From assembly GCA_944320285.1 (NCBI GenBank), contig CALUGX010000004.1, positions 1-50,747 on the forward strand: 50,747 nt of DNA. The letters are read 5' to 3'. Below are positions 1,715 to 39,868 of this stretch, piece by piece. Source of the DNA: an uncultured Prevotella sp. (GTDB taxonomy: Bacteria; Bacteroidota; Bacteroidia; Bacteroidales; Bacteroidaceae). How positions within the stretch are numbered: position 1 is the stretch's first letter; each line of letters opens with the position of its first letter. Below the pieces are notes generated by a model. It was not told where the DNA came from and searched no databases. It saw only the letters and a list, made by a program, of their open reading frames with translations. The position numbers were made by a program, and so were the translations under genes.

Positions 1715-1802
1715 GCAAAAGGCCGTCTTTCGCAGTGTAAAAGATGCCATATTGCGAGGTAAAAGGTATCCTTTCGCAACGCAATATGTGGCATTTTGCA
1801 TC
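1715..1802. repeat. 22-bp dyad array, copy A (4 units)
   Basis: Four consecutive 22-bp units start at 1715, 1737, 1759 and 1781. Each is an imperfect dyad related to GCAAAAGG-nnn-CCTTTTGC followed by a 3-bp spacer; the fourth unit has the GCAATATG variant. The array sits in the 267-bp gap between btuG and the next lipoprotein gene. Nothing else was recognised in that gap. The period is not a multiple of three, so the array is not coding. Confidence 0.8.
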
Positions 1803-1875
1803 GCACCTTGCCAAATTCCATTCATCATTTACAGTCTAAGCACATCTACTTATTATTTTGCTCCTCCCCTACTTA

Positions 1876-3168
1876 CTACTTCCTGATAAAACACATATGC
1901 GCCGGAATGTCGCCCGTGCGCACGCTCCACTTCTTGAAGCCGTCCTTGGAGTAACAGTGAAGCACGCCGCTCGACACGTAGTTTTTTGCGTCGGTGACGA
2001 ATATGTCGCCCGTTTCGGGATGTATGGCTATGCCGTAAGGAATGGTGATGTCGGCCTCGGTGCCGTCTTGTATGAACGAGTCGCTCACCTTCTGTTTCGT
2101 CACCGTGTTGACTATTCCGTAGGTTATGGTGTTGCTCTGGGTGTAGTTGTTCCACTCGGTGCTGTAGTAATAGAGCGAGTCTCCGCTGATGCAGAAGTTC
2201 GAACAGGGTATGTCGAGCGTGTCGGTCACTTCCATCTCATTCCTGCCCTGCTTCTTTTCAAGCACGTAGAGGTTAGAGTGTATGCCGTTATAGTCGCCGC
2301 GCGACGTCACCCACAGCTTGCCCTCGTTGTCCGCCTTGATGCGGTGCAGGTTGATGCCTACGGGGATTTTCTCCACTTGGCGGAAGCCCTCAAGCTCTAT
2401 TACGGACACGGTGTAGTCATAGTTGGGCGCCATGTATCCGCCGGAGTTGGCCACATAGAGGTATTGCCCCAGCACTTCAAGCTCGTCGGGCTGGTAACCC
2501 ACGGTACACTTGTCCACTGTCTGCAATGTAAGCGTGTCCACCTTGTACACCGCCCCCTGCACGGCGTCGGGGTTGTTGAGCTGCACCGGGCCTACGTATG
2601 ACGTAACGTAGGCGTGCCCACGGTAAAAGCGCACGTAGCGGCAGTTGGGTATGTCAACCTGCCCAAGACGTATGCCGGTGCGCGCATCGAGCACTTCCAC
2701 CTTGTTTGAGCAGTTCACCACGACATACAGTTTTGACCCGTACACCTGTATGTCGTTGCCTACATCGCCCAGTTCCTTCACCACGTGCGGGTTACGCTCG
2801 GCGTAGAGGTTGCGCACGTAGTAGCCCTGCACATAGTCGAGGTAGTCAAGCGTGCACTTGTTGCTGCCCATATTGCCCTCGTTAAGCAGGTACATCCCTA
2901 CGACGCCCGTGCCGCCGGACAGCTCCACGGGCAGTATGTCATACTCCGTAGGTACAACGACCTCGTCCTCACGGCATGAACATACGAGGATTAAAGGTAA
3001 AAAAGTAAAAAGGTAAAAGGGTAAAACGCGCACAAGGCAAGGAACAAACCGCCTGATGCCCACGCCTTTCCTTGACGCAGGATTGACACTACCGGCAAGG
3101 CTATTGTCTTTAACTCCTTTAACTTCCTTAACTCCTTTAACTTCCACAAAAGCACCTGTTTTCATCAT
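1876..3168 (-). CDS. btuG: BtuG-like cobalamin-binding beta-propeller lipoprotein
   Basis: The 430-residue product has a lipoprotein signal ending LILVCSC, then a YncE/DUF5074-type seven-bladed propeller. Repeated blade motifs are visible, for example VYGSKLYVVVNCSNKVEVLD, GQYLYVANSGGY and HPETGDIFVTDAKNYV. In Bacteroides BtuG is a surface lipoprotein that captures vitamin B12 with very high affinity and hands it to the TonB-dependent transporter BtuB. Its placement directly after btuB, with an ATGA stop/start overlap and behind a cobalamin riboswitch, supports the same role here. Oddity: the first about 50 codons are built from two simple repeat tracts. A GTG in the VGIRRF region would give a more ordinary signal peptide, so the exact start is uncertain. 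Confidence 0.82.
   Translation of the reverse strand: MMKTGAFVEVKGVKEVKGVKDNSLAGSVNPASRKGVGIRRFVPCLVRVLPFYLFTFLPLILVCSCREDEVVVPTEYDILPVELSGGTGVVGMYLLNEGNMGSNKCTLDYLDYVQGYYVRNLYAERNPHVVKELGDVGNDIQVYGSKLYVVVNCSNKVEVLDARTGIRLGQVDIPNCRYVRFYRGHAYVTSYVGPVQLNNPDAVQGAVYKVDTLTLQTVDKCTVGYQPDELEVLGQYLYVANSGGYMAPNYDYTVSVIELEGFRQVEKIPVGINLHRIKADNEGKLWVTSRGDYNGIHSNLYVLEKKQGRNEMEVTDTLDIPCSNFCISGDSLYYYSTEWNNYTQSNTITYGIVNTVTKQKVSDSFIQDGTEADITIPYGIAIHPETGDIFVTDAKNYVSSGVLHCYSKDGFKKWSVRTGDIPAHMCFIRK
2991..3145 (-). repeat. Simple-repeat tracts inside the btuG 5' coding region
   Basis: Two tracts are visible. At 3108-3145 an 18-bp unit (TTAACTCCTTTAACTTCC on the plus strand) occurs twice in tandem and encodes EVKGVK twice. 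At 2991-3027 a series of GGTAAAA/AGTAAAA units encodes the hydrophobic core FYLFTFLPL of the lipoprotein signal. Similar tracts occur between genes elsewhere in this window (7905-7940, 14525-14600, 33085-33110). Confidence 0.7.
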
Positions 3169-5168
3169 ATTTCAAACGTTAAGGTTACACGGTAGTTACG
3201 TTTCGGCATGGGATAGTTGAGGATTACGTCGTAATCCTGGCTGAAGAGGTTGTTCACTTCGAGCTGAACGCGCGCGGTGTAGCGGCTCCAGCTGAATTCC
3301 TTTGACAGCGAGAGGTCGCTTGTGTACCACGGTTGCGTGTGGTTGTAGACGATGTTTTCCTGCTGGTTATACCGCTCGCCGGTATAGATGAAGCTGTAGT
3401 TCAGGTTCCATGAGCGCCACGTTGCCTGCACCGCAGCCGACCCGCTGTGCCACGGTATGTAAGGTATCTGGTCGCGGTAGTACGTGTCCGCAGGGTTGGT
3501 TACGTCGATGGCTTCCTGGTATGTGTACTGAAGGCGCGTGGTGATAAACAGTTCGCGCACGGGGTTTACGGTCAACGAGGCCGTGGCGTCGATGCCCGTT
3601 ATGTGCACGCGGCCAAGGTTAAGCATAGTCCAACGGAACTGCGCGCCCTTGGGATAGGCTACGATTTTGTCGTGAACGGTGTTGTAATAGCCGTCCACCT
3701 GCACCGCCCATTCCGTCAGGAAGCCGCGGCGCGCGCGGCTCTTGTAGGCCAGTCCTACGTCATATTGGTTGGTATATTCGGGCCGCAGCTGCGAGTTGCC
3801 CATCTCGGCGTAGTACAAATCGTTGAACGTTGGCATACGGAAGCTGCGCTTTACGAAACCGCGGACGGAGAAACCGGCGTCGCGGAAGGGAGCGTAAGAC
3901 ACGAAGAAGGCCGGTGTCCACACAGTCTTGTCACCTGGGGAGGCGGCTAAGCGCACGCGGTCACGCACGTAGTTGAACACCACGCTGCCCTGCATCTTCA
4001 GCCGTCCAAGGCGCAACGCCGTGGCCACGGAAGCAAAGTGGTGCCAGCGCATGGGGTAAACGAAACCGTACATATCGGCATCCATCTTGTTCCACTGCAC
4101 GTCATAGGCCGCCGACACGTCCCAGAATGACGTTATATTATATAGGTGTGACGTGGAGAGATAGAACTCCTGCTGGCGGTAAACGTTGTCAATGGCCATC
4201 ACGGTGGTGTCGCGGTTGACGTATTTGGTGAGGTAATAGGCGTACTTGGCGGCCAGGCGGGCGTGATACTTGCCACCGAACGACCTTTCGACAGTGCCCT
4301 GCACGAACGAGTTATTATCCCAAATACGTTCGCCGCGTCGCCACACGTTGTTCACTATGGCACCGGGCACGCCACGCTCCGACGTGTAGTTATAGGCCTT
4401 GAGCATCCACTTGCCGCCCGTTATGTCGCCGAAGAGGGCTGCCTCCATGCGCGTTGCACGTATGTCTCCGTTCTGTCGGGTGGCCGTTGTGTCGTACATT
4501 ATCTCGTCAGTCATTACCGCCTTGCGCCTGTAACGAAACTTATACTTACCACTGCTGCTGACCCATTCGCCGCTGAACGACGCCTTAACCTTGTCGGAAA
4601 ACTTAAGTTCGATGAGCAAGGCAGGGTTCACCAAGTCGAACGAACCGGCCTTGAGCGTAGCCTTTACGTGGAAAGTCTCGCCCGGGGCGAACTCCGGACG
4701 GCGCGTCCACATATAGATAGAGCCGGCCGAATTGAAGTCCTTGGCCGACTGGAATATCTGGCTTTTCTGCCCATTGTAGAGCGATATGGCCTGCATGTTG
4801 TCAAGAGAGAACATACCGAGGTCAACCTGTCCGTTCTGCGCATTTGACAGCTGGATGCCGTCATAGAACACTCCTACGTGGTTGGTGCCCATGCTTCGGA
4901 TGTTGACGGTCTTTATTCCGCCCACTCCGCCGTAGTCTTTCAACTGCACGCCGGCGAAAAACCTCAGCGCGTCGGCCACGCTAAGGCTGTTGAGACGGCG
5001 CAACTCGTCGCCCTGAAGCCGCTGCGACGGGATGACACTCTGGCGGCTGTCAGATACGACAACCACCTCTTGCAGACGCTGCACGCTGTCGAGTGGCGCC
5101 ACGCCAGTCTGGGCATGAGCCGACAAGACAGCAACGCACAGCGGTGCGATGACTGCTTTCTTAATCAT
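3165..5168 (-). CDS. btuB: TonB-dependent vitamin B12 outer-membrane transporter BtuB
   Basis: The 667-residue product has a signal peptide (MIKKAVIAPLCVAVLSAHAQ), a TonB-box-like region around LQEVVVVSD, a plug domain (about residues 45-160, with the typical SVADALRFFAGVQLKDYGG and NIRSMG motifs) and a 22-strand-type barrel ending in an aromatic-rich outer-membrane signature (RVTLTFEI). It lacks the N-terminal carboxypeptidase-like domain of SusC proteins, as expected for BtuB/siderophore-type receptors. The cobalamin riboswitch directly upstream identifies the substrate. The gene overlaps btuG by 4 nt, so the two are probably translationally coupled. The protein imports cobalamin across the outer membrane using TonB-ExbB-ExbD energy; the inner-membrane BtuCDF genes are not in this window. 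Confidence 0.92.
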   Translation of the reverse strand: MIKKAVIAPLCVAVLSAHAQTGVAPLDSVQRLQEVVVVSDSRQSVIPSQRLQGDELRRLNSLSVADALRFFAGVQLKDYGGVGGIKTVNIRSMGTNHVGVFYDGIQLSNAQNGQVDLGMFSLDNMQAISLYNGQKSQIFQSAKDFNSAGSIYMWTRRPEFAPGETFHVKATLKAGSFDLVNPALLIELKFSDKVKASFSGEWVSSSGKYKFRYRRKAVMTDEIMYDTTATRQNGDIRATRMEAALFGDITGGKWMLKAYNYTSERGVPGAIVNNVWRRGERIWDNNSFVQGTVERSFGGKYHARLAAKYAYYLTKYVNRDTTVMAIDNVYRQQEFYLSTSHLYNITSFWDVSAAYDVQWNKMDADMYGFVYPMRWHHFASVATALRLGRLKMQGSVVFNYVRDRVRLAASPGDKTVWTPAFFVSYAPFRDAGFSVRGFVKRSFRMPTFNDLYYAEMGNSQLRPEYTNQYDVGLAYKSRARRGFLTEWAVQVDGYYNTVHDKIVAYPKGAQFRWTMLNLGRVHITGIDATASLTVNPVRELFITTRLQYTYQEAIDVTNPADTYYRDQIPYIPWHSGSAAVQATWRSWNLNYSFIYTGERYNQQENIVYNHTQPWYTSDLSLSKEFSWSRYTARVQLEVNNLFSQDYDVILNYPMPKRNYRVTLTFEI

Positions 5169-5230
5169 AAGTGAAAATGTTTAAATGTCTCAAATGCCCA
5201 ATCCCACGGGAACATAAGAGATAACGCCAC

Positions 5231-5388
5231 AAGGCAGGTCTTCTGACTTACCGCCCGGACGCAAACGCCTTCCCGAAAAAATGTCAGTGGCTTAATGTTT
5301 GCTCCATATAAGGGCGGCTCACAGCAGCGGGACTGTCCGGGACTTACACCCGGTTCCCTTTTAATCACCTGACGGTGAACCGTTGCGT
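5231..5388 (-). promoter_or_regulatory. Cobalamin (B12) riboswitch
   Basis: On the minus strand this leader contains the conserved cobalamin-riboswitch blocks in order: a GGTTCACCGTCAGGTGATTAA region at the 5' side, GGTGTAAGTCCCGGACAGTC followed by CCGCTGCTGTGA (the B12-box core), and the closing AGTCAGAAGACCTGCC block at 5232-5247. It lies between the -7 box at 5392-5399 and the btuB start at 5168. Binding of adenosylcobalamin or a related form is expected to shut off the btuB-btuG operon. Confidence 0.95.
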
Positions 5389-5391
5389 GGG

Positions 5392-5399
5392 CAAAGGTA
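5392..5399 (-). promoter_or_regulatory. -7 box of the btuB operon promoter
   Basis: TACCTTTG on the minus strand matches the Bacteroidetes -7 consensus TAnnTTTG and lies only a few bases before the riboswitch, so the riboswitch would begin almost at the transcript start. No well-spaced -33 TTTG was found. Confidence 0.6.
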
Positions 5400-5518
5400 A
5401 TGCTTTTTGCCAAAAACAAGGCATATAATTGCAAAAAATAATAAAAAACATATAAAGTTGCGCCTAATGCACGCTTCGCCGCACGCCAACGACGAAGGCA
5501 TCAGAGGCCAACGGCTTT

Positions 5519-5596
5519 GCAAGAGGTGGCGTTTTGCAGGACGAAAGGGCACCTTTTACAGTCCAATACACCACCTTTTGCAACGCAATATGCCAT
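5519..5596. repeat. 22-bp dyad array, copy B (3.5 units)
   Basis: Units start at 5519, 5541, 5563 and 5585 (the last is partial). They match the consensus dyad GCAAAAGG-nnn-CCTTTTGC with the same 22-bp spacing as the other arrays. The array lies in the 623-bp divergent gap between btuB and the M3 peptidase gene. Apart from the riboswitch, this array and the two promoters, I see nothing in that gap. Confidence 0.75.
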
Positions 5597-5756
5597 GAAC
5601 GGCAAACTGACTGACTGTCAGCAAGATGCAGACTTGTGCCGGGAAGACGCCTAAACCGTGGTTTGTACATTGTAAAGCAACGCCTTTCGCGCCTTTCGGG
5701 CAGGTAAATAATAGTTAAAAATATACGCCCATACGGCACACAACGAATAAAATTGT

Positions 5757-5764
5757 TACCTTTG
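5757..5764 (+). promoter_or_regulatory. -7 box upstream of the M3 peptidase gene
   Basis: TACCTTTG matches TAnnTTTG and lies 27 nt before the start codon at 5792. A -33 box is not evident. Confidence 0.5.
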
Positions 5765-5791
5765 TAATCAAAAATAGAGAAAGACGTCAGT

Positions 5792-7873
5792 ATGAATGAA
5801 AAGACTACAAAAGGACAACGGATAAATCCTTTTTTTGAACCTTACAACACTCCGCACGACACCGTACCCTTCGACAAAATCAAGCTGGAAAACTTCGAGG
5901 AAGCCTTCATGGAGGGCATACGCCGTGACGACGAGCAAATAGAGAAGACCGTCAACAATCCCGACAAACCGACGTTTGACAACACGATAATCAACGCCGA
6001 GGAGGACAAAGACGGGTATTATGACTTGCTGTCACGTGTGTCAACAGTGTTTTCCAACCTGCTAAGCGCCGAAACCAACGACAAACTCGACGCGCTGGCG
6101 CAAAAAATGCAACCGATACTGACGAAACACGCCAACGACGTAAGGCTTAACAAGCGGCTGTTCGAGCGCATAAAAGCCGTACACCGCCACCACCGCAAAC
6201 TGACACAGGAGGAGAAACGGCTGCTCGACAACTGTTATGACGGCTTTGTGCGCAGCGGCGCGCTGCTCGACGACGAGGGAAAGGAACGCCTGCGCAAACT
6301 GACTGAAGAAGCGGGAATGCTGTCGTTGCAATTCTCACAGAACCTCTTAAAAGAAAATAAGGCTTACAAGCTGCACATCACCGACGAGGCACAACTTGAC
6401 GGACTGCCCGACACGGCACGCGAGGCCGCCGCGGCAACGGCCAAGGAGCAAGGCGTGGAAGGATGGGTGTTCACACTTGACTATCCAAGTTACAGCCCTT
6501 TCATGACATACTCCACCAACCGCGAACTACGCCGGCAGATGTATATGGCGCGTAACACTGTATGCACGCACGACAACGCGGAAAACAACATCGAGATATG
6601 CAAGCGTCTCGTCAACCTGCGGCGTGAGATAGCGCAGCTCCTTGGATATAAGACTTACGCTGACTACGTGCTGACACACCGCATGGCGGGCAACGCACGC
6701 AACGTCTATAAGTTGCTCAACGACCTGATTGACGCATACAAGCCTACGGCTGAAAAGGAGGTTGAGGCGATAACCAAGATTGCCCAAAAGACAGAAGGCA
6801 AGGACTTCAAAGTGGAGCCGTGGGACTTCAGCTTCTACTCTCACAAGCTGCAACTTAAGAAATTCAACTTAGACTCGGAAATGCTGCGCCCGTATTTCGA
6901 GTTATCAAACGTGATAAAAGGTGTGTTCGGCCTTGCCAACCGCCTATACGGAATTACGTTCAAGGAGAATAAAGACATCCCCGTGTACCATCAGGACGTC
7001 AAGGCTTATGAGGTGTTCGATAAGGATGGCTCGTATCTTGCCGTGTTCTATGCCGACTTCTTTCCCCGTAAAGGCAAGCAAGGCGGGGCATGGATGACGG
7101 AGTTCCAAGGCCAATGGATCGACCGAAAAGGTGAAAACGTGAGGCCGCACGTCAGCGTGGTGATGAACTTCACCAAACCTACCGACGAAAAACCGGCACT
7201 GCTGACACTCGGCGAAGTGGAAACTTTCCTCCACGAGTTTGGCCATTCACTTCACGGAATGTTCGCCAACACGCGGTTTGAAAGTCTTTCAGGCACAAAC
7301 GTATGGTGGGACTTCGTTGAACTTCCGTCACAATTCATGGAAAACTTTGCCATCGAAAAAGACTTCCTGCGCACGTTCGCCTTCCATTATAAGACCGGCG
7401 AGCCGCTGCCTGACGAACTCATCAGCCGCATAGTGAAAAGCCGTAACTTCATGGCGGCATACTCCTGTCTGCGTCAAGTCAGCTTCGGATTGCTTGACAT
7501 GGCTTATTACACCAAGAAACAACCGTTCAGCGACGAGATAATTCCGTTTGAAAAGAAAGCATGGGCCAAGGCTATGGTAACGGAGCAGTTACCCGACACG
7601 TGCATGACGGTGCAGTTCAGCCACATCATGTCTGGAGGCTATGCCGCCGGGTATTACAGCTATAAATGGGCGGAAGTGCTTGACGCCGATGCATTCAGTG
7701 TGTTCAAGAAGCACGGAATATTCGACCGAAAAACGGCGCAAAGTTTCCGTGACAACATCTTGTCAAAAGGCGGCACGGAACATCCGATGACGCTCTACAA
7801 GCGTTTCAGAGGCGGTGAACCAACGATTGACGCCCTGCTGAAAAGGAACGGGATAAAAAAGACGAAAAAGTAA
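5792..7873 (+). CDS. dcp: M3-family zinc metallopeptidase (peptidyl-dipeptidase Dcp type)
   Basis: The 693-residue cytoplasmic protein has the thimet-oligopeptidase zinc motif HEFGH at residues 481-485, embedded in FLHEFGHSLHGMFA, with the downstream glutamate region SGTNVWWDFVELPSQFMENF that completes the zinc site. The size and the sequence near the C-terminus (HIMSGGYAAGYYSYKWAEVLDADAF is split here: GGYAAGYYSYKW) fit Dcp/oligopeptidase A, which cleave short peptides and release dipeptides in peptide recycling. No signal peptide is present. It has its own promoter and is followed by a repeat-containing gap, so it is probably monocistronic. Confidence 0.92.
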   Translation: MNEKTTKGQRINPFFEPYNTPHDTVPFDKIKLENFEEAFMEGIRRDDEQIEKTVNNPDKPTFDNTIINAEEDKDGYYDLLSRVSTVFSNLLSAETNDKLDALAQKMQPILTKHANDVRLNKRLFERIKAVHRHHRKLTQEEKRLLDNCYDGFVRSGALLDDEGKERLRKLTEEAGMLSLQFSQNLLKENKAYKLHITDEAQLDGLPDTAREAAAATAKEQGVEGWVFTLDYPSYSPFMTYSTNRELRRQMYMARNTVCTHDNAENNIEICKRLVNLRREIAQLLGYKTYADYVLTHRMAGNARNVYKLLNDLIDAYKPTAEKEVEAITKIAQKTEGKDFKVEPWDFSFYSHKLQLKKFNLDSEMLRPYFELSNVIKGVFGLANRLYGITFKENKDIPVYHQDVKAYEVFDKDGSYLAVFYADFFPRKGKQGGAWMTEFQGQWIDRKGENVRPHVSVVMNFTKPTDEKPALLTLGEVETFLHEFGHSLHGMFANTRFESLSGTNVWWDFVELPSQFMENFAIEKDFLRTFAFHYKTGEPLPDELISRIVKSRNFMAAYSCLRQVSFGLLDMAYYTKKQPFSDEIIPFEKKAWAKAMVTEQLPDTCMTVQFSHIMSGGYAAGYYSYKWAEVLDADAFSVFKKHGIFDRKTAQSFRDNILSKGGTEHPMTLYKRFRGGEPTIDALLKRNGIKKTKK

Positions 7874-10013: not shown

Positions 10014-10089
10014 AAAAATTAAGAGTTAAGAACTAAGAAAATATGCGCTGCCTATGAAGTATTTTCTTAGTTCTTAACTCTTAATTTTT
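10014..10089. repeat. Long heptad-type inverted repeat (30-bp perfect arms)
   Basis: Arms 10014-10043 and 10060-10089 are perfect reverse complements around a 16-nt loop. The arms are made of TTAAGAG/TTAAGAA-like heptads and end in AAGAAAATA. The left arm starts with an A-run and the right arm ends in a T-run, so the element could end transcription from either side. Confidence 0.85.
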
Positions 10090-10117
10090 AATTTAGCACA
10101 TTCCTAATCACACCGTT

Positions 10118-14104: not shown

Positions 14105-14168
14105 CGCCCCGACAACATCTGTACAAATAGCGTATCATAACGTATAACACGCTGACACCCAGTACGTT

Positions 14169-14256
14169 ACAAAAGGGCATCTTTTGCGTTGCAAAAGGTG
14201 CCCTTTTACATTGCAATATGTGCCCTTTCGCATCGCAATAGATGGCATATTACAAT
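14169..14256. repeat. 22-bp dyad array, copy C (4 units)
   Basis: Units start at 14169, 14191, 14213 and 14235. The second unit is nearly the perfect consensus (GCAAAAGG-TGC-CCTTTTAC). The array lies in the 585-bp gap between the GIN gene and the first duplicated lipoprotein gene. The gap also holds a promoter and a small hairpin; the stretch 14257-14439 shows nothing I recognise. Confidence 0.85.
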
Positions 14257-14689: not shown

Positions 14690-15868
14690 ATGAAAATCAC
14701 CAAATTCTTGGCCATGATGCTTATGGCGTTCACTGTCGGCGCGTTATGCTCCTGTGGAAGTGACGATGACGACGACGGCACCGGAGGAGGCGGCAGCGGC
14801 AGCGGCAAAGCACCCACAAGCATACGCGGACATAAGTTCAACTTCTTCTATGAATACGGCGGCGAACTTTACCGCTCGGTGTCGTTCTTCCAAAACGAGG
14901 ACGGAACGTTCGGTTTCTTAAGCTATTCGGCCGTAGACTCGTATGGGGCTAAATTAGAGGAGTGCACCAAGACATCGGCCAACACGATGCACATAGAGAT
15001 TTTATCGACACACCTCAACGGAGACATAGGCGACTACTGGGACGACTCCTACTACCAGGACTTCGACCATTCCTACACGTTCGACCTAACGTTCACTGAC
15101 GACGACCAAGGAATTGCCTACGTCACGGAAACAAAATACGCCCTTGACGCATGGGGAAAGTGGGGCAAACAGACAACGGAAGCCACGTGGTACTTCCGCA
15201 TGGACTCCGACGTCAAGCCCTCTTCGCCGCTGATTGACGCCGCAATCAGCGGCGAAGAGGGCGGAGACGAGCCGTGGGAAGACAATGACGAAGATGGCAA
15301 CGATAGCGAAACCGTGCAGCCCAATGATGACGGCCTTAACTTTAAAATATCCTCAGTGGGTAAAACATACCTCAATTACAGAACAGAATCGGGTGTAAGC
15401 GGCATTTGCTGCGGCACGTCACCACGCCCGACAATCTACGACATAACAGGAAGGGCCAACCCGTCAACTTCCACATATATAAACCTTGAAGGCCTGTCGC
15501 AAAACACAAAATATTACATACGTACTTTCAAAGAAGAAAATGGGAAAATCACATACGGTAATAAAGTGACATCCATAACAACGGTAGGCAGCACCCCGAA
15601 CAGTGAAATCATGCTCAACCTTGAATGGGTAAGCGGAGGACTACAGGCTGAATATGCCATAAACAGCACAAAGACCTTCCTGACATATTTCGGTACTTCA
15701 TACAGCGAAAACGCCGGCCACGACTTTGGATATGAAACACAAGGCGGTTCCGGGGAATATTTTTTAAAGTTTGACGGTCCGTGGAGCGGGTCGTTAATGT
15801 TCTATCTCGCGGCAATGGATATTGAAACAGATATCATTTATGAAGAGAGAGTTACAAACAAAAAGTAA
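14690..15868 (+). CDS. Surface lipoprotein with Fn3-like C-terminal domain (tandem copy 1)
   Basis: The 392-residue product has a lipoprotein signal (MKITKFLAMMLMAFTVGALC-SC) followed by GSDDDDD, which matches the acidic surface-export signal described for Bacteroides and related genera, and then a Gly/Ser linker. Residues about 42-190 form a conserved N-terminal domain shared with the next gene (GHKFNFFYEYGGELYRSVSFF). Residues about 215-300 resemble an Fn3-like fold (GLSQNTKYYIRTFKEENGKI). No enzyme motif is seen. It lies 52 nt before its paralogue and probably forms an operon with it. Function unknown; adhesion or glycan binding would be guesses. Confidence 0.75.
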   Translation: MKITKFLAMMLMAFTVGALCSCGSDDDDDGTGGGGSGSGKAPTSIRGHKFNFFYEYGGELYRSVSFFQNEDGTFGFLSYSAVDSYGAKLEECTKTSANTMHIEILSTHLNGDIGDYWDDSYYQDFDHSYTFDLTFTDDDQGIAYVTETKYALDAWGKWGKQTTEATWYFRMDSDVKPSSPLIDAAISGEEGGDEPWEDNDEDGNDSETVQPNDDGLNFKISSVGKTYLNYRTESGVSGICCGTSPRPTIYDITGRANPSTSTYINLEGLSQNTKYYIRTFKEENGKITYGNKVTSITTVGSTPNSEIMLNLEWVSGGLQAEYAINSTKTFLTYFGTSYSENAGHDFGYETQGGSGEYFLKFDGPWSGSLMFYLAAMDIETDIIYEERVTNKK

Positions 15869-15920: not shown

Positions 15921-17177
15921 ATGAAAGTAACTAAATTTTTGGCTATGATGCTTATGGCGTTCACGGTCGGTGCGTTGTTCTCATGCAGCAGCGACGATGA
16001 CGACGACGGCCCAGGAGGAGGCGGCAGCGGTAGCGGCAAAGCGCCATCGAGCATACGCGGACACGAGTTCAACTTCTTCTACGAGTACGGCGGCGAACTT
16101 TACCGTTCGGTGTCGTTCTTCCAGAGCGATAACGGAACGTTCGGTTTCCTTAGCTATTCAACCACAGATATGTTGGGGGCGAGATTGGACGAATGCACAA
16201 AAACGTCAGCCAACTCACTGCACTTGGAAATCCTATCCACACATATCGAAGCCGGCGGCACAGGCGGCTATTGGGATGGCGCACAATACCAGGACGCCGA
16301 CCACCGTTATACTTTCGACCTGTTTTTTGTCACCGACGACCAAGGCATTGCTTACGTCACGGAAACGAAAGGTGGCCTTGACGCTTGGGGACATTGGGGA
16401 ATACAGACCACGGAAGCCACGTGGTACTTCCGCATGGACTCCGACGTCAAACCTGACAAAGCCATGATTGACGCCGTAATCAGCGGCGAAGAGGGCGGAG
16501 ATGAACCGTGGGAAGACGACGAGGAAGACCAAGGAGGCAGCGGTGACATCGGACATGGAGACAGTGACGGAACATCTGTGAACGACCTGCTGGTTGACAT
16601 CAGCGCAGTTTATCCTACTTACCTTTATTATCATGTTGAATACGCCAATCCCGGCAACTACACCAACCCTGACGACTATCTCACGGCAGGAGTATGCTAT
16701 GGGACATCGCCTAACCCTACCGTGTTTGACGAAACCACAACTTTAGAAACTGTCCGCCCCAACAGCGACTCTTACGCCGTGATGGACGGACTGAAACCTA
16801 ACACAACTTATTATATGCGACCGTTCAGGGAAGTAGGCGGCTCGATAAAATATTACCGTGAGACGTCTGTCAAGACACCTGGCACAGGTGAGGACAGCGA
16901 CGTGATGCTGAAACTGACTTACCTGTATGACAACACAATAAAGATGGAATACAGCATCAACACTGAAGGGACGTTTAAACTGGAACTTTGGACATGGGAC
17001 ATAAGCGGCACCTTCAGCCCTTACGACTTAGGCTATAAGACTAAGGGAGACAAAGGTGTCGAAACCTACAGATGGCCAATAAACTGGGACAAGAGACGTT
17101 ATTTCCACCTCTTAGCCACAAACGTTGAAACCGGTGTGTCATACAGGTCAAACATTTTATATAAAGGTACCGATTAA
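15921..17177 (+). CDS. Surface lipoprotein with Fn3-like C-terminal domain (tandem copy 2)
   Basis: The 418-residue paralogue of the preceding gene shares the signal peptide, SSDDDDD surface-export signal, Gly/Ser linker and N-terminal domain almost residue for residue up to the SGEEGGDEPWED linker at about residue 195. After the linker the two diverge strongly; only the Fn3-like pattern (CYGTSPNPTVFD, GLKPNTTYYMRPF) remains. DNA identity is high in the shared part, including a 41-bp identical block (15176-15216 against 16410-16450), and the ribosome-binding leader was copied too. A terminator follows. Function unknown. Confidence 0.75.
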   Translation: MKVTKFLAMMLMAFTVGALFSCSSDDDDDGPGGGGSGSGKAPSSIRGHEFNFFYEYGGELYRSVSFFQSDNGTFGFLSYSTTDMLGARLDECTKTSANSLHLEILSTHIEAGGTGGYWDGAQYQDADHRYTFDLFFVTDDQGIAYVTETKGGLDAWGHWGIQTTEATWYFRMDSDVKPDKAMIDAVISGEEGGDEPWEDDEEDQGGSGDIGHGDSDGTSVNDLLVDISAVYPTYLYYHVEYANPGNYTNPDDYLTAGVCYGTSPNPTVFDETTTLETVRPNSDSYAVMDGLKPNTTYYMRPFREVGGSIKYYRETSVKTPGTGEDSDVMLKLTYLYDNTIKMEYSINTEGTFKLELWTWDISGTFSPYDLGYKTKGDKGVETYRWPINWDKRRYFHLLATNVETGVSYRSNILYKGTD

Positions 17178-23761: not shown

Positions 23762-23822
23762 CCCGCGACTGACAGGCTGGCAGTCACGGCAAGCCGCGGG
23801 ACTCGCTGATTTACAACGCTTT

Positions 23823-23888
23823 ATGAAAGGGCGTCTTTCACGCAATGAAAGACGCCCTTTTACGTTGCAAAAGGCCGCCTCTTGCAAG
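23823..23888. repeat. 22-bp dyad array, copy D (3 units)
   Basis: Units start at 23823, 23845 and 23867, and a decayed fourth at 23889. Units 1 and 2 carry the ATGAAAG variant and form a near-perfect inverted pair with each other. The array sits in the 300-bp gap between the thioesterase and the LacI-family gene, which otherwise holds only the promoter/operator. Confidence 0.75.
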
Positions 23889-31938: not shown

Positions 31939-32002
31939 AAATTTTACGACTCATTTATCAATAGACATCAATACAAAAAACAATGTCAAAAATCCAAGTT
32001 CG

Positions 32003-32090
32003 CCAAAAGCCATCTTTTAGGCCGCCATTAACGCCCTTTCAGGCCGTCAAAAGGCACCGTTTAGGCCGTCGAAAGCCACCGTTTGCACGG
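32003..32090. repeat. 22-bp dyad array, copy F (4 units, AGGCCG variant)
   Basis: Units start at 32003, 32025, 32047 and 32069. They keep the A-run/T-run dyad (CCAAAAGCCATCTTTTAGG) but the usual GCA spacer is replaced by AGGCCG. The array lies between two ATPase genes of one operon, so it is transcribed if the operon is. Confidence 0.7.
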
Positions 32091-32120
32091 CTGTTCGCAA
32101 GACACTGAATATCAGCACAT

Positions 32121-34320: not shown

Positions 34321-35574
34321 TTAAATATTATTCAGATACTTGATTTTGTAAATCTCCTGCAACAGTTGCACCTCGTGCAGCCGCTTGCAGAGCTGAGCCT
34401 CGCTCACGGCGTTGATGTCCCTGAGCATCTCATTCACGGTCTCCGTGCCGTTGGCCACTCTTACTTCAGCCTTGTTGCGTATGCGGCGGCGCAGCGTTAT
34501 TATCTCGTCGTCTTGCCTTATCTGCTCTTTCAGATTGTCGATGACTCCGCCTTGTAGTTCGATTTGCAGCCTTGTATTGAACAGGAAGGCATCGCGCTCA
34601 GACTGCACGGTGCGCCGCTCCACATCTAATTTGCGGCGGTCGCCGGACCGTGTGTAGAGCGAACCGAAGTTCCACGTCAACGTAAGGCCTACTTTATAAT
34701 AGGCATCGAAGCCATCGTTGAACATATCAAGGCCGGGATTGCCATAGCCTCCACGGGCGAACACTCCTACACGCGGACGCAACCCTGTGTCGAGAGCGTC
34801 CCGCCGGACGTCTAAAAGGCGGTCTTGCGCAGCGTAGAGGGCCAGCTCCGGACGGCGGTTTGCGGCCGTTACGTCATAATCCGGCGACGGCCTGACAAAC
34901 GTAACGCTGTCGCCGAAGTCAACACCGGCAAACGTTTCAAGCATACACAGGTATGTCTTGCGTTGCGTCAGCAGGCTCGTTTCCTTCTGGCACGCCTTCA
35001 CCTGCTCCACCTTTACGGCGTCAATGTCGGTCTGATTGGCCACTCCGCCCCTAACCATAGCCTCGACCGAGGCCAACGACAAAGCCAAATCATCCTTCAG
35101 CACACGCACTTGCGCTATCTGTTCGTCAAGCACGAGTATGCCGAAAAACAACTCGTCTACACGCCGGTTGACGTCATACATCGCCACACTTACCTTCTCA
35201 CGACTTACGTCGCCTTGCGCCTCGGCCATGCGTTTGGCCGAAGATACGGCGCCTCCGTCGTAAAGTTGCTGGCTTATAGTTACGTTCACGTCATACTGGT
35301 CTTTACCTATCGCCGGGATGTCGATGTCAGGCAAGTTGACGGGTATGGCCGTCACGTCGCTCTGGTAGGTTGCCGTGCCGTTGACGCCAACCTGCGGCAA
35401 CCAGGCTTTTGCCGCGTTCGTCACGGTCAGACGGCGGCTCTGCTCCACCAAATCGTACTGCCGTATTACGGGATAGTTGTCACGCGCCAAAGCCTTACAC
35501 TGCTCCAAAGTCACCTGGGCGGTGCATACGCCGTGGCACAAGGCGGCAAAAAAGCATATAAACAGATGTTTCAT
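34321..35574 (-). CDS. TolC-family outer-membrane efflux protein
   Basis: The 417-residue protein has a signal peptide (LFICFFAALCHGVCTAQ) and the duplicated outer-membrane-efflux-protein repeats (about residues 20-200 and 225-410), with long amphipathic helices and the PQVGVNGTATYQSD and RVGVFARGGYGNPGLDMF strand regions. It should form the trimeric channel for the HlyD/ABC exporter encoded downstream. It is the first gene of the operon, divergent from the AraC-family regulator. Confidence 0.92.
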   Translation of the reverse strand: MKHLFICFFAALCHGVCTAQVTLEQCKALARDNYPVIRQYDLVEQSRRLTVTNAAKAWLPQVGVNGTATYQSDVTAIPVNLPDIDIPAIGKDQYDVNVTISQQLYDGGAVSSAKRMAEAQGDVSREKVSVAMYDVNRRVDELFFGILVLDEQIAQVRVLKDDLALSLASVEAMVRGGVANQTDIDAVKVEQVKACQKETSLLTQRKTYLCMLETFAGVDFGDSVTFVRPSPDYDVTAANRRPELALYAAQDRLLDVRRDALDTGLRPRVGVFARGGYGNPGLDMFNDGFDAYYKVGLTLTWNFGSLYTRSGDRRKLDVERRTVQSERDAFLFNTRLQIELQGGVIDNLKEQIRQDDEIITLRRRIRNKAEVRVANGTETVNEMLRDINAVSEAQLCKRLHEVQLLQEIYKIKYLNNI

Positions 35575-35603
35575 ATCATTAAGTTGAATATTGTTTTCGG
35601 GTG

Positions 35604-35611
35604 CAAAGATA
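35604..35611 (-). promoter_or_regulatory. -7 box of the efflux operon
   Basis: TATCTTTG on the minus strand (complement of 35604-35611) matches TAnnTTTG, 29 nt before the tolC start. No -33 TTTG is seen, which suits an activator-dependent promoter. Confidence 0.5.
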
Positions 35612-35706
35612 GCAGGCTTTGCCGCTTGAGCGTTTCCTTATACGTCAATATAATGTCCCTTTTGTATTATCATATCGACTTATAGCACATTTTAGACCAT
35701 AATATA

Positions 35707-35737
35707 TTGGCAAAACAAACTTTTTGGGGTAATTTTG
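35707..35737 (+). promoter_or_regulatory. Promoter of the AraC-family gene
   Basis: TTG at 35707-35709 and TAATTTTG at 35730-35737 are 20 bp apart; the start codon is at 35748, only 10 nt after the -7 box. Confidence 0.6.
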
Positions 35738-35747
35738 CAAAACAACA

Positions 35748-36665
35748 ATGAAACAAAAAAGGATGAAAAACAAATCGCCCGAAAGGTTCTCATTCCACGA
35801 ATTAAGCATACTGCTGGGCTGCGCCAACAACGCCGACGCACCTGAAATATTCATTGGCAAGGGCCTGGCAATGCTCTATAACGGGCACAGGGAACTTCAG
35901 AAGATTTTACAGACAGACACTCCTTACCTTATGGAAGATTTAAGGATGGGCTACGTAAGGAAAGGTAAAATAAGGCTTACGGTAAACCTTATTGAACGCG
36001 AATACGGCGCGGGGACGTTCGCATACATATCCGCCGGCAGCATAATGCAAATCAACGAGATGTCGGATGACTTTGACCTGTGCGGCATTATGATTGGCGA
36101 CGAGCGTCTGCGGGCCGCACTCGGCCAAGCCACGCCGACACTGTGTAACGGCGACACGCCGTTTTTCACGATACGCCCGACAGCCGAAGACGCCGCCACG
36201 ATAAGCGGGATGATCAGCATCATATGGGAGTTGATTAACAAAAAGAACGTCCCCGACGAGACGCTTAACAGCATGATTTCGGCCTTAATACATTATTACA
36301 ATTATCTGAAACGGCTCGAAAGCGACACCGTGGAAGATTGGACACCGCGCGGCAAGCAGTTGTTCAACACATTTATCAACCTTGTGAACACTTATGCAAA
36401 GAGTGAACGAAAACTGCAATTCTACGCCGACAAGATGTGTGTGACGGCCCGTTACCTTAGCACTGTTGTCAAACAAACAACCGGAATAACGGCAAAGGAG
36501 TGGATTGACCGTGCCGTAGTCACCAATGCCAAGGTGATGCTGAAATACAGCGACAAACAAGTGGCCGAAGTTGCTTACGCCCTTGATTTCCCAAACGTAA
36601 GTTTCTTTTGCAAGTACTTCAAGCACGCAACAGGCCAGACTCCACAAGAATACAGAAACAAATAA
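35748..36665 (+). CDS. AraC-family transcriptional regulator
   Basis: The 305-residue protein has a cupin-like N-terminal sensor region (about residues 20-175) and a C-terminal AraC double helix-turn-helix (FYADKMCVTARYLSTVVKQTTG and VAEVAYALDFPNVSFFCKYF, ending KHATGQTPQEYRN). The divergent position next to tolC makes it the likely regulator of the efflux operon. The inducer is unknown. Its leader would be very short or absent given the promoter position. Confidence 0.9.
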   Translation: MKQKRMKNKSPERFSFHELSILLGCANNADAPEIFIGKGLAMLYNGHRELQKILQTDTPYLMEDLRMGYVRKGKIRLTVNLIEREYGAGTFAYISAGSIMQINEMSDDFDLCGIMIGDERLRAALGQATPTLCNGDTPFFTIRPTAEDAATISGMISIIWELINKKNVPDETLNSMISALIHYYNYLKRLESDTVEDWTPRGKQLFNTFINLVNTYAKSERKLQFYADKMCVTARYLSTVVKQTTGITAKEWIDRAVVTNAKVMLKYSDKQVAEVAYALDFPNVSFFCKYFKHATGQTPQEYRNK

Positions 36666-36675
36666 GAAGTTTTAC

Positions 36676-36750
36676 CAATTAAGAATTAAGAAAAACACCT
36701 TTTGTAATCAAAACGACAAAGGATATTTTCTTAATTCTTAACTCTTCACT
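36676..36750. repeat. Heptad-type inverted repeat
   Basis: AAGAATTAAGAAAA (36681-36694) and TTTTCTTAATTCTT (36726-36739) are perfect complements, extended imperfectly by more heptads. It lies between convergent genes, where a two-way terminator would be useful. Confidence 0.75.
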
Positions 36751-36754
36751 TAAA

Positions 36755-37300
36755 TCATCCCTGCACGGCTGAGTCGAACCTTGTGTCTTTACTCAGGCTC
36801 ATTTGTCCTGACTGAGAAACTGTTATAAGCATCGGCACTTGGTCGTCGCTAAGCACGTCAGGATGGCCTACGCTGGCCGCAAAAACGATATGGTTTCCCT
36901 CAATATGGTCGAAAACGATACCCAACAGCGCACTTCTCTCAAGGTATTTCTCTGTTACCTGTGACGCAAAATCCTGTTTGTTGAACGTCTTTTTAAATAT
37001 CGGCTGTCCGCCGCCGGTGATTATGGCAACATCTATCACGTTGTCGTAATACTTCGCTCCGGTATCGTCCGTGATAACCGGCAGCGACGTATCGGCATGA
37101 CGCATGATGCTCACGCTACAGTCTTTTCCGTCCCATTTCACGTTTTCCATATATTTTGAGTCCTGCATCTTTACAGGTCCCGACGGGGCTTTGGGCACAG
37201 GCTTCTTTGCAATTATGTCGTTTGTGGATTTCTTCTCGCCGCAAGCTGAGAATGCGAACGCCGCCACGACGGCGATGAGCAACAGTTGTAATGCTTTCAT
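36755..37300 (-). CDS. Small lipoprotein (possibly DUF4738)
   Basis: The 181-residue protein has a lipoprotein signal (LLLIAVVAAFAFSAC-GEKK), a Lys/Pro-rich linker and a compact domain of about 130 residues (WDGKDCSVSIMRHADTSLPV through LITVSQSGQMSLSKDT). The pattern recalls DUF4738 proteins of Prevotella, but I hold this with low confidence. No catalytic motif is visible. It has its own well-formed promoter and stands alone between two inverted or divergent contexts. Confidence 0.75.
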   Translation of the reverse strand: MKALQLLLIAVVAAFAFSACGEKKSTNDIIAKKPVPKAPSGPVKMQDSKYMENVKWDGKDCSVSIMRHADTSLPVITDDTGAKYYDNVIDVAIITGGGQPIFKKTFNKQDFASQVTEKYLERSALLGIVFDHIEGNHIVFAASVGHPDVLSDDQVPMLITVSQSGQMSLSKDTRFDSAVQG

Positions 37301-37324
37301 TTACGTATTATTGGTTTAATGGCG

Positions 37325-37355
37325 CAAAAGTAGTATAAAATGATTAAAATGCAAA
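37325..37355 (-). promoter_or_regulatory. Promoter of the small lipoprotein gene
   Basis: On the minus strand TTTG (complement of 37352-37355) and TACTTTTG (complement of 37325-37332) are 19 bp apart, 24 nt before the start codon. Confidence 0.75.
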
Positions 37356-37383
37356 ACAAAATGCCGTTTCACATCTCTTTTAT

Positions 37384-37414
37384 TTTGAAATTCAAACCTT
37401 TTACGCTATTTTTG
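37384..37414 (+). promoter_or_regulatory. Promoter of the DUF4230 gene pair
   Basis: TTTG at 37384-37387 and TATTTTTG at 37407-37414 are 19 bp apart. The leader to the start at 37488 contains a 7-bp hairpin, CGGTTGC (37433-37439) with GCAACCG (37457-37463). Confidence 0.7.
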
Positions 37415-37487
37415 CCACAAACAGGCGCGCAGCGGTTGCCAAAATAACTGCATTAAGCAACCGACCGCACGGCAGAAAAATACTGAT

Positions 37488-38168
37488 ATGGGAAAAACAA
37501 CATTACTAACCATCATCCTGGGCTTGGCTTTGGCGGCGTGCACCGGTGGCAAAACGCCTCCTAAAAAGACTGAAACCGTTGACACTGTACCCGTCATGGT
37601 GATGCAGATACGCAAATGCTCAAAGCTCTACACCGCCGAATACAAGGTACACAAAATAGTGACGCACGACGACAAAGTGGAACTTAAAGGGGCTTTGTTT
37701 AACCAGAAATTCAATATCGCGGTGCCGATGTCGCAGCGCAAAATAGCCATTCCCATAGAAGCAAAGCTGAAAGCGTACATCGACTTCGGCGTGTTCAGCG
37801 AGAAAAACGTGTCCGTCAACGGCGACAAGGTTGAGATAATACTTCCCGACCCTAAAGTGGAACTGACATCAAGCCGCATCAACCACAGCGAGATAAAGAA
37901 ACACGTGTCGCTCGTGCGCTCCAATTTCACCGACACGGAAATGGCCGGCTACGAACAACAAGGGCGCGAAGCGATAATCAAGAGCATACCCAAGCTCGGC
38001 ATAATAGAAATGGCCAGAGAGAGCGCGGCGCACGCCTTGATTCCCATGCTGACACGCCTCGGATACAAGGAAGAGAACATCACGATTACATTCCGCAAGG
38101 ATTTCACCTACGAGGACTTACCACTGCTCCTCAATAATAAAACCATAGAAAATGGGAAACGACAATAA
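37488..38168 (+). CDS. DUF4230 lipoprotein
   Basis: The 226-residue protein has a lipoprotein signal (LLTIILGLALAAC-TGG) followed by a DUF4230 domain (VMVMQIRKCSKLYTAEYKVHKI, IPIEAKLKAYIDFGVFSEKN, VEIILPDPKVELTSSRINH). DUF4230 proteins are envelope proteins of unknown function. The next gene is a paralogue and overlaps it by 17 nt, which implies that the two products are made together. Confidence 0.85.
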   Translation: MGKTTLLTIILGLALAACTGGKTPPKKTETVDTVPVMVMQIRKCSKLYTAEYKVHKIVTHDDKVELKGALFNQKFNIAVPMSQRKIAIPIEAKLKAYIDFGVFSEKNVSVNGDKVEIILPDPKVELTSSRINHSEIKKHVSLVRSNFTDTEMAGYEQQGREAIIKSIPKLGIIEMARESAAHALIPMLTRLGYKEENITITFRKDFTYEDLPLLLNNKTIENGKRQ

Positions 38169-38805
38169 CGGCAAAGCAAGAAAGGGCAGTATGGCGGCAG
38201 GAGTGTTGAAGAACTTAGGCCGGCTGAAGTTTGCCGTCATAGCGGCAATAGTGCTCCTGGCCGTAATCTCGGCTGCTTACTTAGTGAGGTCGTGCCGCAA
38301 CAACAGCATGACAACCGTTGTAAACGACAAGATAAACATAACGCCCACGCAAGTAAGAGCTATGAAGGAAATCGGCGAATGGGAGTTTCTGTCGATAGAA
38401 GACGAGGAGATGATCGACACCACAAGGCGAAAACTCTTCGGTACGGACGAGCTGATACGCATCTACTCTGGCACGTTGCGCCTCGGCATCGACCTTGCCG
38501 AGGCCAAGGACGACTGGCTGACGGTGACCGGCGACACGCTCACGGTGACGTTGCCGAGAGTGAAACTCTTAGACGAGGACTTCATCGACGAAGCAAAAAC
38601 ACAATCGTTCTTCGAGACCGGCACGTGGAACGATGCAGCACGCGAGGCCATGTACCAGCGTGCAAAAGAAAAAATGAAACGCCGATGCCTGACGAAAGAA
38701 AACATAACAAGCGCGAAGAATAACGCCGAGAAGCAATTTTTCCAGATGTTCAAGGCTATGGGCTTCAAGTTCGTAGTGGTAAGATTTGAGAAGCAAAGCA
38801 ATTAA
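38152..38805 (+). CDS. DUF4230 membrane protein
   Basis: The 217-residue protein has a basic N-terminus, one transmembrane helix (LKFAVIAAIVLLAVISAAYLV, about residues 25-45 in two pieces) and a DUF4230 domain (VRAMKEIGEWEFLSIEDEEM, YSGTLRLGIDLAEA, VTLPRVKLLDEDFIDE). It differs from the upstream paralogue in being anchored by a helix, not a lipid. The pair may form a complex across the periplasm; this is inference from co-translation only. Confidence 0.85.
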   Translation: MGNDNNGKARKGSMAAGVLKNLGRLKFAVIAAIVLLAVISAAYLVRSCRNNSMTTVVNDKINITPTQVRAMKEIGEWEFLSIEDEEMIDTTRRKLFGTDELIRIYSGTLRLGIDLAEAKDDWLTVTGDTLTVTLPRVKLLDEDFIDEAKTQSFFETGTWNDAAREAMYQRAKEKMKRRCLTKENITSAKNNAEKQFFQMFKAMGFKFVVVRFEKQSN

Positions 38806-38806
38806 G

Positions 38807-38926
38807 TTAAGAGTTAAGAATTAAGAGTTAAGAAAATATGCCTTGCTATTTGTTTACGAGTACACAAGTTCTTTGCCCTTTAACCAACAAAGCATATTTT
38901 CTTAACTCTTAATTCTTAACTCTTAA
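38807..38926. repeat. Heptad-type long inverted repeat (35-bp perfect arms)
   Basis: Arms 38807-38841 and 38892-38926 are perfect complements built of TTAAGAG/TTAAGAA heptads ending in AAAATATGC, with a 50-nt loop. It fills the gap between two convergent genes and its right arm contains the stop codon of the ArsG-like gene. Confidence 0.9.
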
Positions 38927-39621
38927 TTAAATAAGCAGAACACTCCCGCTCCGATGAAAAGCACCCCCACAACAACGTTAATCCACCGCTGCACGGCGCT
39001 CATACGCGTCCGCATGGCATCCGTGCAGCCAATGCCGTAAGCCACGGCCCACGCCAGAAGCACGGCGGGAACCGACGTAGCCACGGCGAAAACCACGGGC
39101 AGCAGATAGCCGCCGGCCGAGCGGACTGACAGCGGCATGAGCATACCAAAATACACTATCGCGCTCTCCGGGCAGAAAGACAGGGCAAGGAGCACGCCGA
39201 GCACCAGGCTGCCCCACACGCCGCGGAAGCGGTGCCCATGCGACGCCACGTCAGGGCAATGCTCATGTTTGTGGATGAAACGCTCAAGGATGAAATAAAG
39301 GCCTACGACTATCAGCACAGGGGCGAGCACTCTCTCGCCCCACTCGGCAAACCAACGGGCCACGGCCTCGACGCCTCCGCTGCCCCGGAACACAGCTATC
39401 AGGGCTACGCCGAGCAGCGAATAGGCCAATATCCGGCCTGAAATGTAAGCCAGACAGTTAATGAACACACTGCGGCGATGGTGCGCGTCCTTGGCCAGAT
39501 AGCCCATAGCCGCCACGTTGGCGGCAAGCGGACAGGGATGCAATGCAACCATCAGTCCTAGCAGAAAAACCGTAAGCGCGGGAACGCCGCTGTTATCTAT
39601 AACACCTTGAATGAAGTCCAT
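38923..39621 (-). CDS. ArsG/CcdA-like six-helix permease
   Basis: The 232-residue membrane protein has about six helices and two cysteine-proline motifs in paired positions (HPCPLAANVAAMGYL near residue 28 and LSFCPESAIVYFGMLMPL near 145). This is the DsbD/CcdA-like fold and closely resembles proteins annotated as ArsG-family aromatic arsenical permeases or sulfite-exporter-like proteins. The two cysteines fit thiol-electron transfer or thiolated-metalloid transport. A His-rich loop (HKHEHCPDVASHGH) lies between the halves. No ars genes are nearby, so the substrate stays open. Confidence 0.82.
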   Translation of the reverse strand: MDFIQGVIDNSGVPALTVFLLGLMVALHPCPLAANVAAMGYLAKDAHHRRSVFINCLAYISGRILAYSLLGVALIAVFRGSGGVEAVARWFAEWGERVLAPVLIVVGLYFILERFIHKHEHCPDVASHGHRFRGVWGSLVLGVLLALSFCPESAIVYFGMLMPLSVRSAGGYLLPVVFAVATSVPAVLLAWAVAYGIGCTDAMRTRMSAVQRWINVVVGVLFIGAGVFCLFN

Positions 39622-39642
39622 ATTATCCTAAAATGTGTTATG

Positions 39643-39650
39643 CAAAGTTA
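39643..39650 (-). promoter_or_regulatory. -7 box of the ArsG-like gene
   Basis: TAACTTTG on the minus strand (complement of 39643-39650) matches TAnnTTTG, 21 nt before the start codon. Confidence 0.5.
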
Positions 39651-39780
39651 TCAAAAAAAACGTCAAACATACTTCAGACCATTTATTATTTAAGAAAACT
39701 TTACACTTCGCCACAGCGTTCGGCTGCGTATTCACAACGGCGCAGCGCGGCTTTGTAACCGACTGACAATCAGCAACTTT

Positions 39781-39868
39781 GCAATATACCACATTTTACA
39801 TCACAAAAGGGCACGTTTTACGACGCGACACGAGACCTTTTATCTTACAAAAGACCTCTCCCATCGGA
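39781..39868. repeat. 22-bp dyad array, copy E (4 units)
   Basis: Units start at 39781, 39803, 39825 and 39847; the last two are degenerate. The array lies in the 445-bp gap before the restriction-modification island. The rest of that gap, 39869-40029, is AT-rich and shows no gene. Confidence 0.7.

Follow-up and report, generated by a model that had tools for sequence, protein, structure and literature searches.

The window analysed here, a stretch of 50,747 nucleotides from an uncultured Prevotella sp. (contig CALUGX010000004.1 of assembly GCA_944320285.1), holds six arrays of a short inverted repeat, all of them between genes and in 22-bp phase, as a preliminary description of this DNA had claimed. 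That description took the unit to be a 19-bp dyad followed by a 3-bp linker. The spacer inside the dyad (GG nnn CC) and the spacer between dyads (GC nnn GC) both measure 3 bp, so the arrays are better described as lattices of 8-bp half-sites that are alternately inverted every 11 bp. A second palindrome, here called D, lies beside the lattices at a fixed phase and had been overlooked. Below, G000 denotes the home genome, G204, G056 and the like are labels of compared genomes, and L followed by a number denotes loci or stretches.

The array at 1715..1799 consists of eight half-sites in alternately inverted 11-bp steps and has a score of 81.9; that at 14169..14253 has eight half-sites as well (score 81.1). 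Six half-sites are found at 23823..23885 (score 57.9), and seven both at 5519..5592, recognised by the half-site profile, and at 39781..39854 (score 52.7), where each array ends in half a unit. These five strong arrays score between 52.7 and 81.9, whereas the sixth, at 32002..32086, is a weaker lattice of eight half-sites (score 25.2) that has no match at E up to 10 to R1, a covariance model built from the five strong ones. Palindrome D in its fullest form, as judged by eye, reads TTTTGTAAC-nnn-YTGATNATCAR-nnn-GTTACAAAA. Its core YTGATNATCAR is matched at 10/11 positions by TTGATATTCAA (1686..1696, centre 24 bp from the edge of array 1715), CTGAATATCAG (32105..32115, 24 bp from array 32002) and CTGACAATCAG (39763..39773, 13 bp from array 39781). 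D-like cores are CTGACTGTCAG (5611..5621, 9/11, 24 bp from array 5519), CTGATTTACAA (23806..23816, 9/11, 12 bp from array 23823) and CTGACACCCAG (14152..14162, 8/11, 12 bp from array 14169). All six arrays have a core of at least 8/11 at 12/13, 24 or 35 bp, a level that was chosen after inspection of these cores; random placement would give 0.135 such cores for each array.

Array 5519 sits 199 bp upstream of a gene at 5792 that is M3-peptidase-like by reading, and its intergenic region also contains a Cobalamin riboswitch (Rfam RF00174, 106 bits) at 5216-5400 on the minus strand, upstream of a gene that reads as TonB-receptor-like. Just downstream of array 39781, three consecutive genes in the segment 40067-42773 read as a D12-class adenine methyltransferase, a putative restriction enzyme and another methyltransferase. 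Two adjacent lipoprotein-like genes (14690-15868 and 15921-17177) have nearly identical N-termini and probably stem from a recent tandem duplication. Tandem repeats of 7 bp (14 bp) of the CTTAACT / TTCTTAA type occur at 10065-10091, 38805-38833, 38899-38928, 49151-49180 and 49212-49240, and similar CTTAACT-type runs adjoin an array elsewhere in the home genome (L077). The contig end (50657-50747) carries an 11/11 D core without a clear lattice, followed by an inverted repeat and a T-run that resemble a terminator.

Lattice geometry, copy number and placement

A half-site profile (8-bp consensus G-Y-R-A-A-A-G-R) was trained on arrays of the home genome and used to scan 375.7 kb of G000, comprising the window and 20 stretches picked for holding arrays. 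It identified 67 arrays with a score of at least 20 and none in five shuffles, made as first-order Markov resamplings; at a score of at least 16 the background amounts to 0.4 arrays per shuffle of 376 kb. Array densities in G000 and G204 are inflated because the stretches were picked for holding arrays, and the other genomes were sampled with some 20 to 140 kb each from arbitrary places, less where contigs are short. With R1, at least 177 matches at E <= 10 were obtained in the 2.53-Mb home genome, counting both strands and with 150 of 1479 candidates scored; the five arrays used for training are found again on both strands by construction. The copies are many, exceed shuffled sequence and keep the strict 22-bp phase, as had been anticipated. 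Extrapolation from the six arrays in the 50.7-kb window gives about 300 per genome.

Exactly eight half-sites is the commonest array length in both G000 (35/67) and G204 (44/66). In some half-sites, often of the final unit, a T-run replaces the A-run in place (GCGTTTTG, GCGATTTG, GCCGTTTG, GTGTTTTG); such variants occur in the arrays of L067, L068, L069, L076 and L079 and in many of G204. A related array in L053 (G222), starting at about 1501, has by eye a period of some 20-21 bp and overlaps naive open reading frames (ORFs), and is possibly a variant geometry.

Covariation of the two arms, also part of the preliminary description, is not borne out by the data. Over 235 dyads of G000, the frequency of Watson-Crick pairing departs at no pair of positions by more than 0.06 from the value expected for independent arms, and nowhere does it exceed that value by more than 0.02. 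Pairs 1/19, 3/17 and 8/12 do have elevated mutual information (z 5.5, 6.0 and 3.0), yet they pair less often than expected, contrary to compensation. Nor, in the eight genomes of the genus that were compared, is complementarity clearly higher between neighbouring arms than between arms further apart within one array: values are 0.643 and 0.638 versus 0.627 in G000 and 0.572 and 0.573 versus 0.555 in G204, and the lowest p of sixteen such comparisons is 0.037, for one axis in G210. Isolated 19-bp dyads are likewise not supported; each half-site seems to be maintained singly, as expected for protein sites on double-stranded DNA. Independent half-sites are also compatible with the earlier idea of proteins aligned on one face of the helix.

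Palindrome D, taken as a core of at least 10/11 positions no more than 45 bp from the array, accompanies 32/62 arrays of G000 and 21/63 of G204. It always lies on one side only (both sides in 0/125 arrays of the two genomes), and all centres fall on the 11-bp lattice, at a distance of 12/13, 24 or 35 bp from the edge. When arrays are instead taken from a consensus-free scan, which knows the lattice geometry alone, and the reach is set to 60 bp, the numbers are 26/52 in G000, with two offsets off the lattice, and 18/54 in G204. Taken together, core and arm of D are similar in sequence to the published IHF consensus WATCAANNNNTTR. A near-IHF pattern slightly looser than that consensus, [AT]ATCA[AG]N4TT[AG], is expected in 1-2% of array flanks and is found in 22/52 (G000), 17/54 (G204), 5/16 (G056), 5/14 (G216) and 2/7 (G210), hence enriched beside arrays in five of eight genomes of the genus.

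Genes were called with a simple longest-ORF script. By this measure 53 of 65 G000 arrays lie between naive ORFs and 12 overlap one; since every overlap falls within 200 bp of the naive start and eight of these ORFs have at most 125 aa, the 12 cases are taken as overcalled starts or spurious ORFs, and the claim of intergenic placement stands. Arrays follow the distribution of all intergenic regions of at least 80 bp (114 tandem, 34 divergent, 28 convergent), with 32 in tandem, 9 in divergent and 9 in convergent orientation and 3 at an edge. In tandem regions they lie a median of 62 bp past the upstream stop and 176 bp ahead of the next start, and in divergent regions at least 156 bp from naive starts, so that the stretch directly upstream of start codons tends to be avoided. 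Along contig C3 of G210, 46 R1 arrays are evenly spread (Kolmogorov-Smirnov p 0.63), with slightly non-exponential spacings (p 0.044).

Conservation and turnover between genomes

For orthologous regions of G000 and G204, 47 protein matches filtered at 55% have a median identity of 84%. In 29 comparable intergenic regions an array is present in both genomes in 7, in G204 only in 2 and in neither in 20, hence both genomes have one in 7 of the 9 regions that hold an array in either. One of the 'G204 only' regions does contain a G000 array, masked by an overlong ORF, and the two arrays align unconvincingly. Of eight aligned orthologous pairs, the four in which both arrays have eight half-sites and align without gaps were used to count conservation. 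Half-sites agree at 194/256 positions (113/128 at positions 4-7), inner spacers at 25/48, outer spacers at 16/36 (41/84 together) and flanks, compared ungapped, at 89/200; in these four pairs conservation is higher in half-sites than in spacers or flanks. Random pairs of one G000 and one G204 array agree at 0.65 for half-sites, 0.73 for positions 4-7, 0.29 for inner and 0.34 for outer spacers.

Upstream of the orthologue of gene 5792, the same profile finds arrays in 6/80 named relatives, every one of them within the first 9 of the list and Marseilla massiliensis An824 being one; the array of L227 lies about 110 bp further upstream. Lattices scoring above 28 occur at 9/80 of these loci versus 0/79 shuffled, and some of the nine have other half-sites. 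The consensus-free scan of this survey yields 8/85 regions at spacing 11, 5 of them from the near clade, and 0-2 at other spacings. A second locus is the region upstream of pta, where an array of G214 (L051) precedes a pta copy by about 300 bp, as one does in G000. A survey of 29 pta loci with the G000 profile, incomplete and with minus-strand loci unturned, found an array within 500 bp only in G000. The pta region of G056 has a different-looking 22-bp repeat, and this prompted the consensus-free scan. Another query, the end of a large gene adjoining an array, had matches in only 10/37 genomes and was set aside.

Arrays are present in related genomes, as the preliminary description had suggested. 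R1 matches occur in 12/38 genomes, all 12 (G000 included) among the 23 of the genus. With stricter filters the count is 8/201, of which six belong to the genus and two to other genera; by R1, arrays are numerous in some species of the genus and absent from others. Geometry reaches further than this consensus. Intergenic self-identity peaks at lag 22 in all eight genus genomes tested and not in G009, and lag 22 is a weak top lag also in G043, G174, G008 and in G224, from another family. Recurring palindrome axes are separated by multiples of 11 bp, a signal that is weak in G005 and G150 and absent from G009. In the geometry-only scan for eight half-sites, 13-42% of intergenic regions exceed the 99% shuffle level in all eight genus genomes, as against 1/24 in G009. 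Matches above 26 bits at spacing 11 were obtained in 5/19 regions of the window, 15/57 of G056, 11/36 of G216, 8/49 of G203, 6/53 of G210, 4/23 of G150 and 3/34 of G005, a total of 52 in seven genomes, versus 0-2 in each genome for every other spacing between 8 and 16. Shuffles give 0-1 and, in the four genomes so tested, lattices without inversion 1-2 per genome. At the same level one case each is found in G174, G008 and G009 and none in G224 and G230, both from other families. None is found in G043, yet 7/25 regions of that genome exceed its own 99% level. Twelve genomes from other genera of the family give 4/109 regions at spacing 11 and a single one for the remaining spacings combined, a comparison made without shuffled control.

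Between species the half-site word changes and the geometry stays. One half-site family dominates in G000 (50/52 arrays), G204 (50/54) and G216 (13/14). Two loci of G008, another genus of the family (L188 and L328), share a half-site of their own, of CAAACWATA type by eye, which suggests that this genus also has a dispersed array family.

A possible protein lattice and its alternatives

We read the arrays as double-stranded sites for a cooperative protein lattice with D at one end, probably architectural in role, and give this reading a probability of about 0.5. Independent half-sites, helical phase, inversion, the preferred number of eight, half-site conservation and a phased D all fit a cooperative nucleoprotein assembly. 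About eight protomers, or four dimers on 22-bp units, would occupy half-sites roughly one helical turn apart in alternating orientation; this spacing would place the bound protomers on one face of the helix. The protein lattice would probably wrap or stiffen some 85 bp. Palindromic D, which is like an IHF/HU bend site and phased at one end, would provide direction and perhaps a nucleation point. The elements would be passed on vertically at intergenic places away from start codons, and half-site sequence would turn over between lineages, presumably together with the binding protein, with geometry kept. Selection, protein binding, wrapping, IHF or HU at D and an architectural rather than classical regulatory role are what we infer from the sequence comparisons.

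Several observations weigh against this reading. No D core at 10/11 is found in 30/62 arrays of G000 and 42/63 of G204; the near-IHF association is absent in G005 (1/7), G150 (0/5), G203 (0/9), G043 (0/2) and G008 (0/1), and the pattern occurs at 0/8 lattices of the 80-locus survey. Half-sites such as GCGTTTTG, in which the A-run is swapped for a T-run, would be unusual for base-specific reading. Some genomes have several unrelated half-site clusters (6, 6, 2, 1 and 1 arrays in G056; 3, 2, 1, 1, 1 and 1 in G203), hence several proteins or one tolerant protein would be needed. Of the eight G000/G204 array pairs, three align weakly (67.5, 72 and 85.5), and one aligns best against synteny. A comparison of protein families over 13 genomes yielded no candidate binding protein: the HU/IHF family is present in 13/13 and Lrp/AsnC in 13/13, neither discriminates, and neither can therefore be assigned as binder. 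The genes adjoining arrays in species with few R1 matches were considered as a source of a cognate gene and rejected, as no gene is common to them; by reading they are mixed and include integrase-like, ATPase-like, KilA-N-like and ribosomal proteins. As a side observation, two HU-family genes are listed in tandem in 11/13 genomes, where the second belongs to an ORF of about 385-470 aa, and G043 has 26 HU-family matches.

A mobile repeat of BIME/REP or MITE type, moved by a transposase acting in trans and mostly fixed now, would account for the high copy number, the intergenic position and a mosaic with an IHF-like site, as PMC2817692 describes it for BIME-1, and several G056 arrays resemble whole-length copies by eye. 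We consider it unlikely, as the same intergenic region is kept in the 7/9 cases above and as, among the matches listed, similarity between G000 arrays is confined to array and D, with one exception that looks like another repeat. A Y1 (RAYT) transposase gene occurs in 5/13 genomes and is absent from G217 (120 R1 matches, 94% complete), G056 and G203; the G000 profile, to which other half-sites would be invisible, finds an array at 0/4 scanned Y1 loci, and the arms do not show the pairing of REP hairpins. In viral_contigs no match was found to one exact array pattern, and in plasmids none to one 201-bp array stretch; both tests are narrow because half-sites vary. The improbable alternative of ordinary operators, with several transcription factors per genome acting on multi-site arrays, draws on the dyad half-sites, their cooperative spacing and the several half-site families of some genomes. 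It sits poorly with a gene context that mirrors all intergenic regions, with positions nearer the upstream stop than the next start and with a single consensus common to nearly all G000 arrays.

Intrinsic curvature from A-tracts at 11 bp, without a sequence-specific protein, is suggested by the A+T periodicity of 11 bp, above the 95% shuffle level in 47/52 arrays of G000, 48/54 of G204 and 13/14 of G216. This periodicity is absent in G203 (1/9) and without shared phase in G056 (8/16, R 0.21), both of which have the lattice, and curving would not require inversion of half-sites; curvature alone was therefore rejected and has a very low probability. It is highly improbable that the arrays act as RNA or single-strand hairpins, be it as terminators, mRNA 3' stabilisers or processing sites: their units are near-palindromic and in tandem regions lie nearer 3' ends, but the arm-pairing statistics show no compensatory covariation, T-runs stand opposite T-runs in the variants, and the window arrays have no Rfam match at the gathering threshold. 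A neutral minisatellite grown by slippage from a 22-bp seed would explain why identity between units of G000 arrays drops with distance (0.604, 0.550 and 0.514 at one to three units), from which local duplication probably occurs; identity climbs again at four and five units, where only long arrays count. Given the modal eight half-sites, a consensus common to unlinked arrays, half-sites conserved above spacers and one geometry with many sequences, such an origin has hardly any likelihood.

If the protein lattice is extended further, the arrays may tentatively be viewed as a bacterial chromatin element, with hundreds of directional sites per genome, each a bend site plus an eight-protomer lattice, and a fast co-evolving packaging protein; place and geometry would be kept across the genus and beyond, with the recognised word repeatedly replaced. 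Were this true, a genome-wide element whose geometry, not sequence, is kept by evolution would be present throughout a large group of bacteria of gut and mouth. It would offer a direct handle on chromosome folding in Bacteroidota, a bacterial case of rapid co-evolution between a DNA-binding protein and hundreds of sites, and a ready-made 85-bp substrate of eight half-sites for finding the protein.

Comparison with known systems

The preliminary description knew of no described family with this structure, and no such Prevotella lattice was found in the openly available full-text literature, most subscription papers lying outside this scope. The arrays are not CRISPR-like, as had been stated, since they have 3-bp spacers only; no search for cas genes was made. 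Lrp/AsnC-type octamers wrap DNA, and eight half-sites would suit one such octamer, each of its four dimers on one of four phased dyads. The genomes have 1-3 copies of this family in all 13 cases, including G009, where 1/24 intergenic regions has a lattice.

The phage protein p6, which has low sequence specificity, forms a nucleoprotein complex that is a physical precedent for the proposed lattice in the sense of 'works like' only. According to PMC10899789, p6 of phi29 binds as a dimer per 24 bp and a monomer per 12 bp, that of GA-1 as a monomer every 11 bp, and the DNA is wound round a protein multimer. The p6 complex organises phage DNA, whereas here discrete chromosomal arrays are found and DNA geometry alone is compared.

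Porphyromonas gingivalis belongs to the same order of bacteria as the host. Its BrickBuilt MITE, like the arrays, has tandem short units in intergenic position; as described in PMC4596501, it has a 23-nt tandem repeat, a leader and a tail with inverted-repeat ends, and 19 copies in one strain. The arrays differ in their inverted 22-bp lattice, in far more copies and in that no conserved ends but D were seen: an alignment of 34 arrays of eight half-sites with flanks has no strongly conserved ends except a weak D signal.

Nearest to the arrays, together with BrickBuilt, are BIME-1 and RIB of enterobacteria, likewise short, high-copy, intergenic palindromic mosaics, with an IHF-binding segment that D may parallel; according to PMC2817692, IHF interacts with the sequence between the REPs of BIME-1, and RIBs located 3' of transcription units, at their end, appear in the reference list of that paper. 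Like REP/BIME elements the arrays are interspersed, intergenic and of high copy. REPs are hairpins tied to a Y1 transposase, whereas the arms here do not covary and Y1 is lacking in 8/13 genomes; as hairpin-like covariation is absent and a Y1 gene is missing even from the array-rich G217, we do not file the arrays under REP/BIME. The arrays may work like BIME-1/RIB, with the difference that their commonest form is eight half-sites on an 11-bp lattice.

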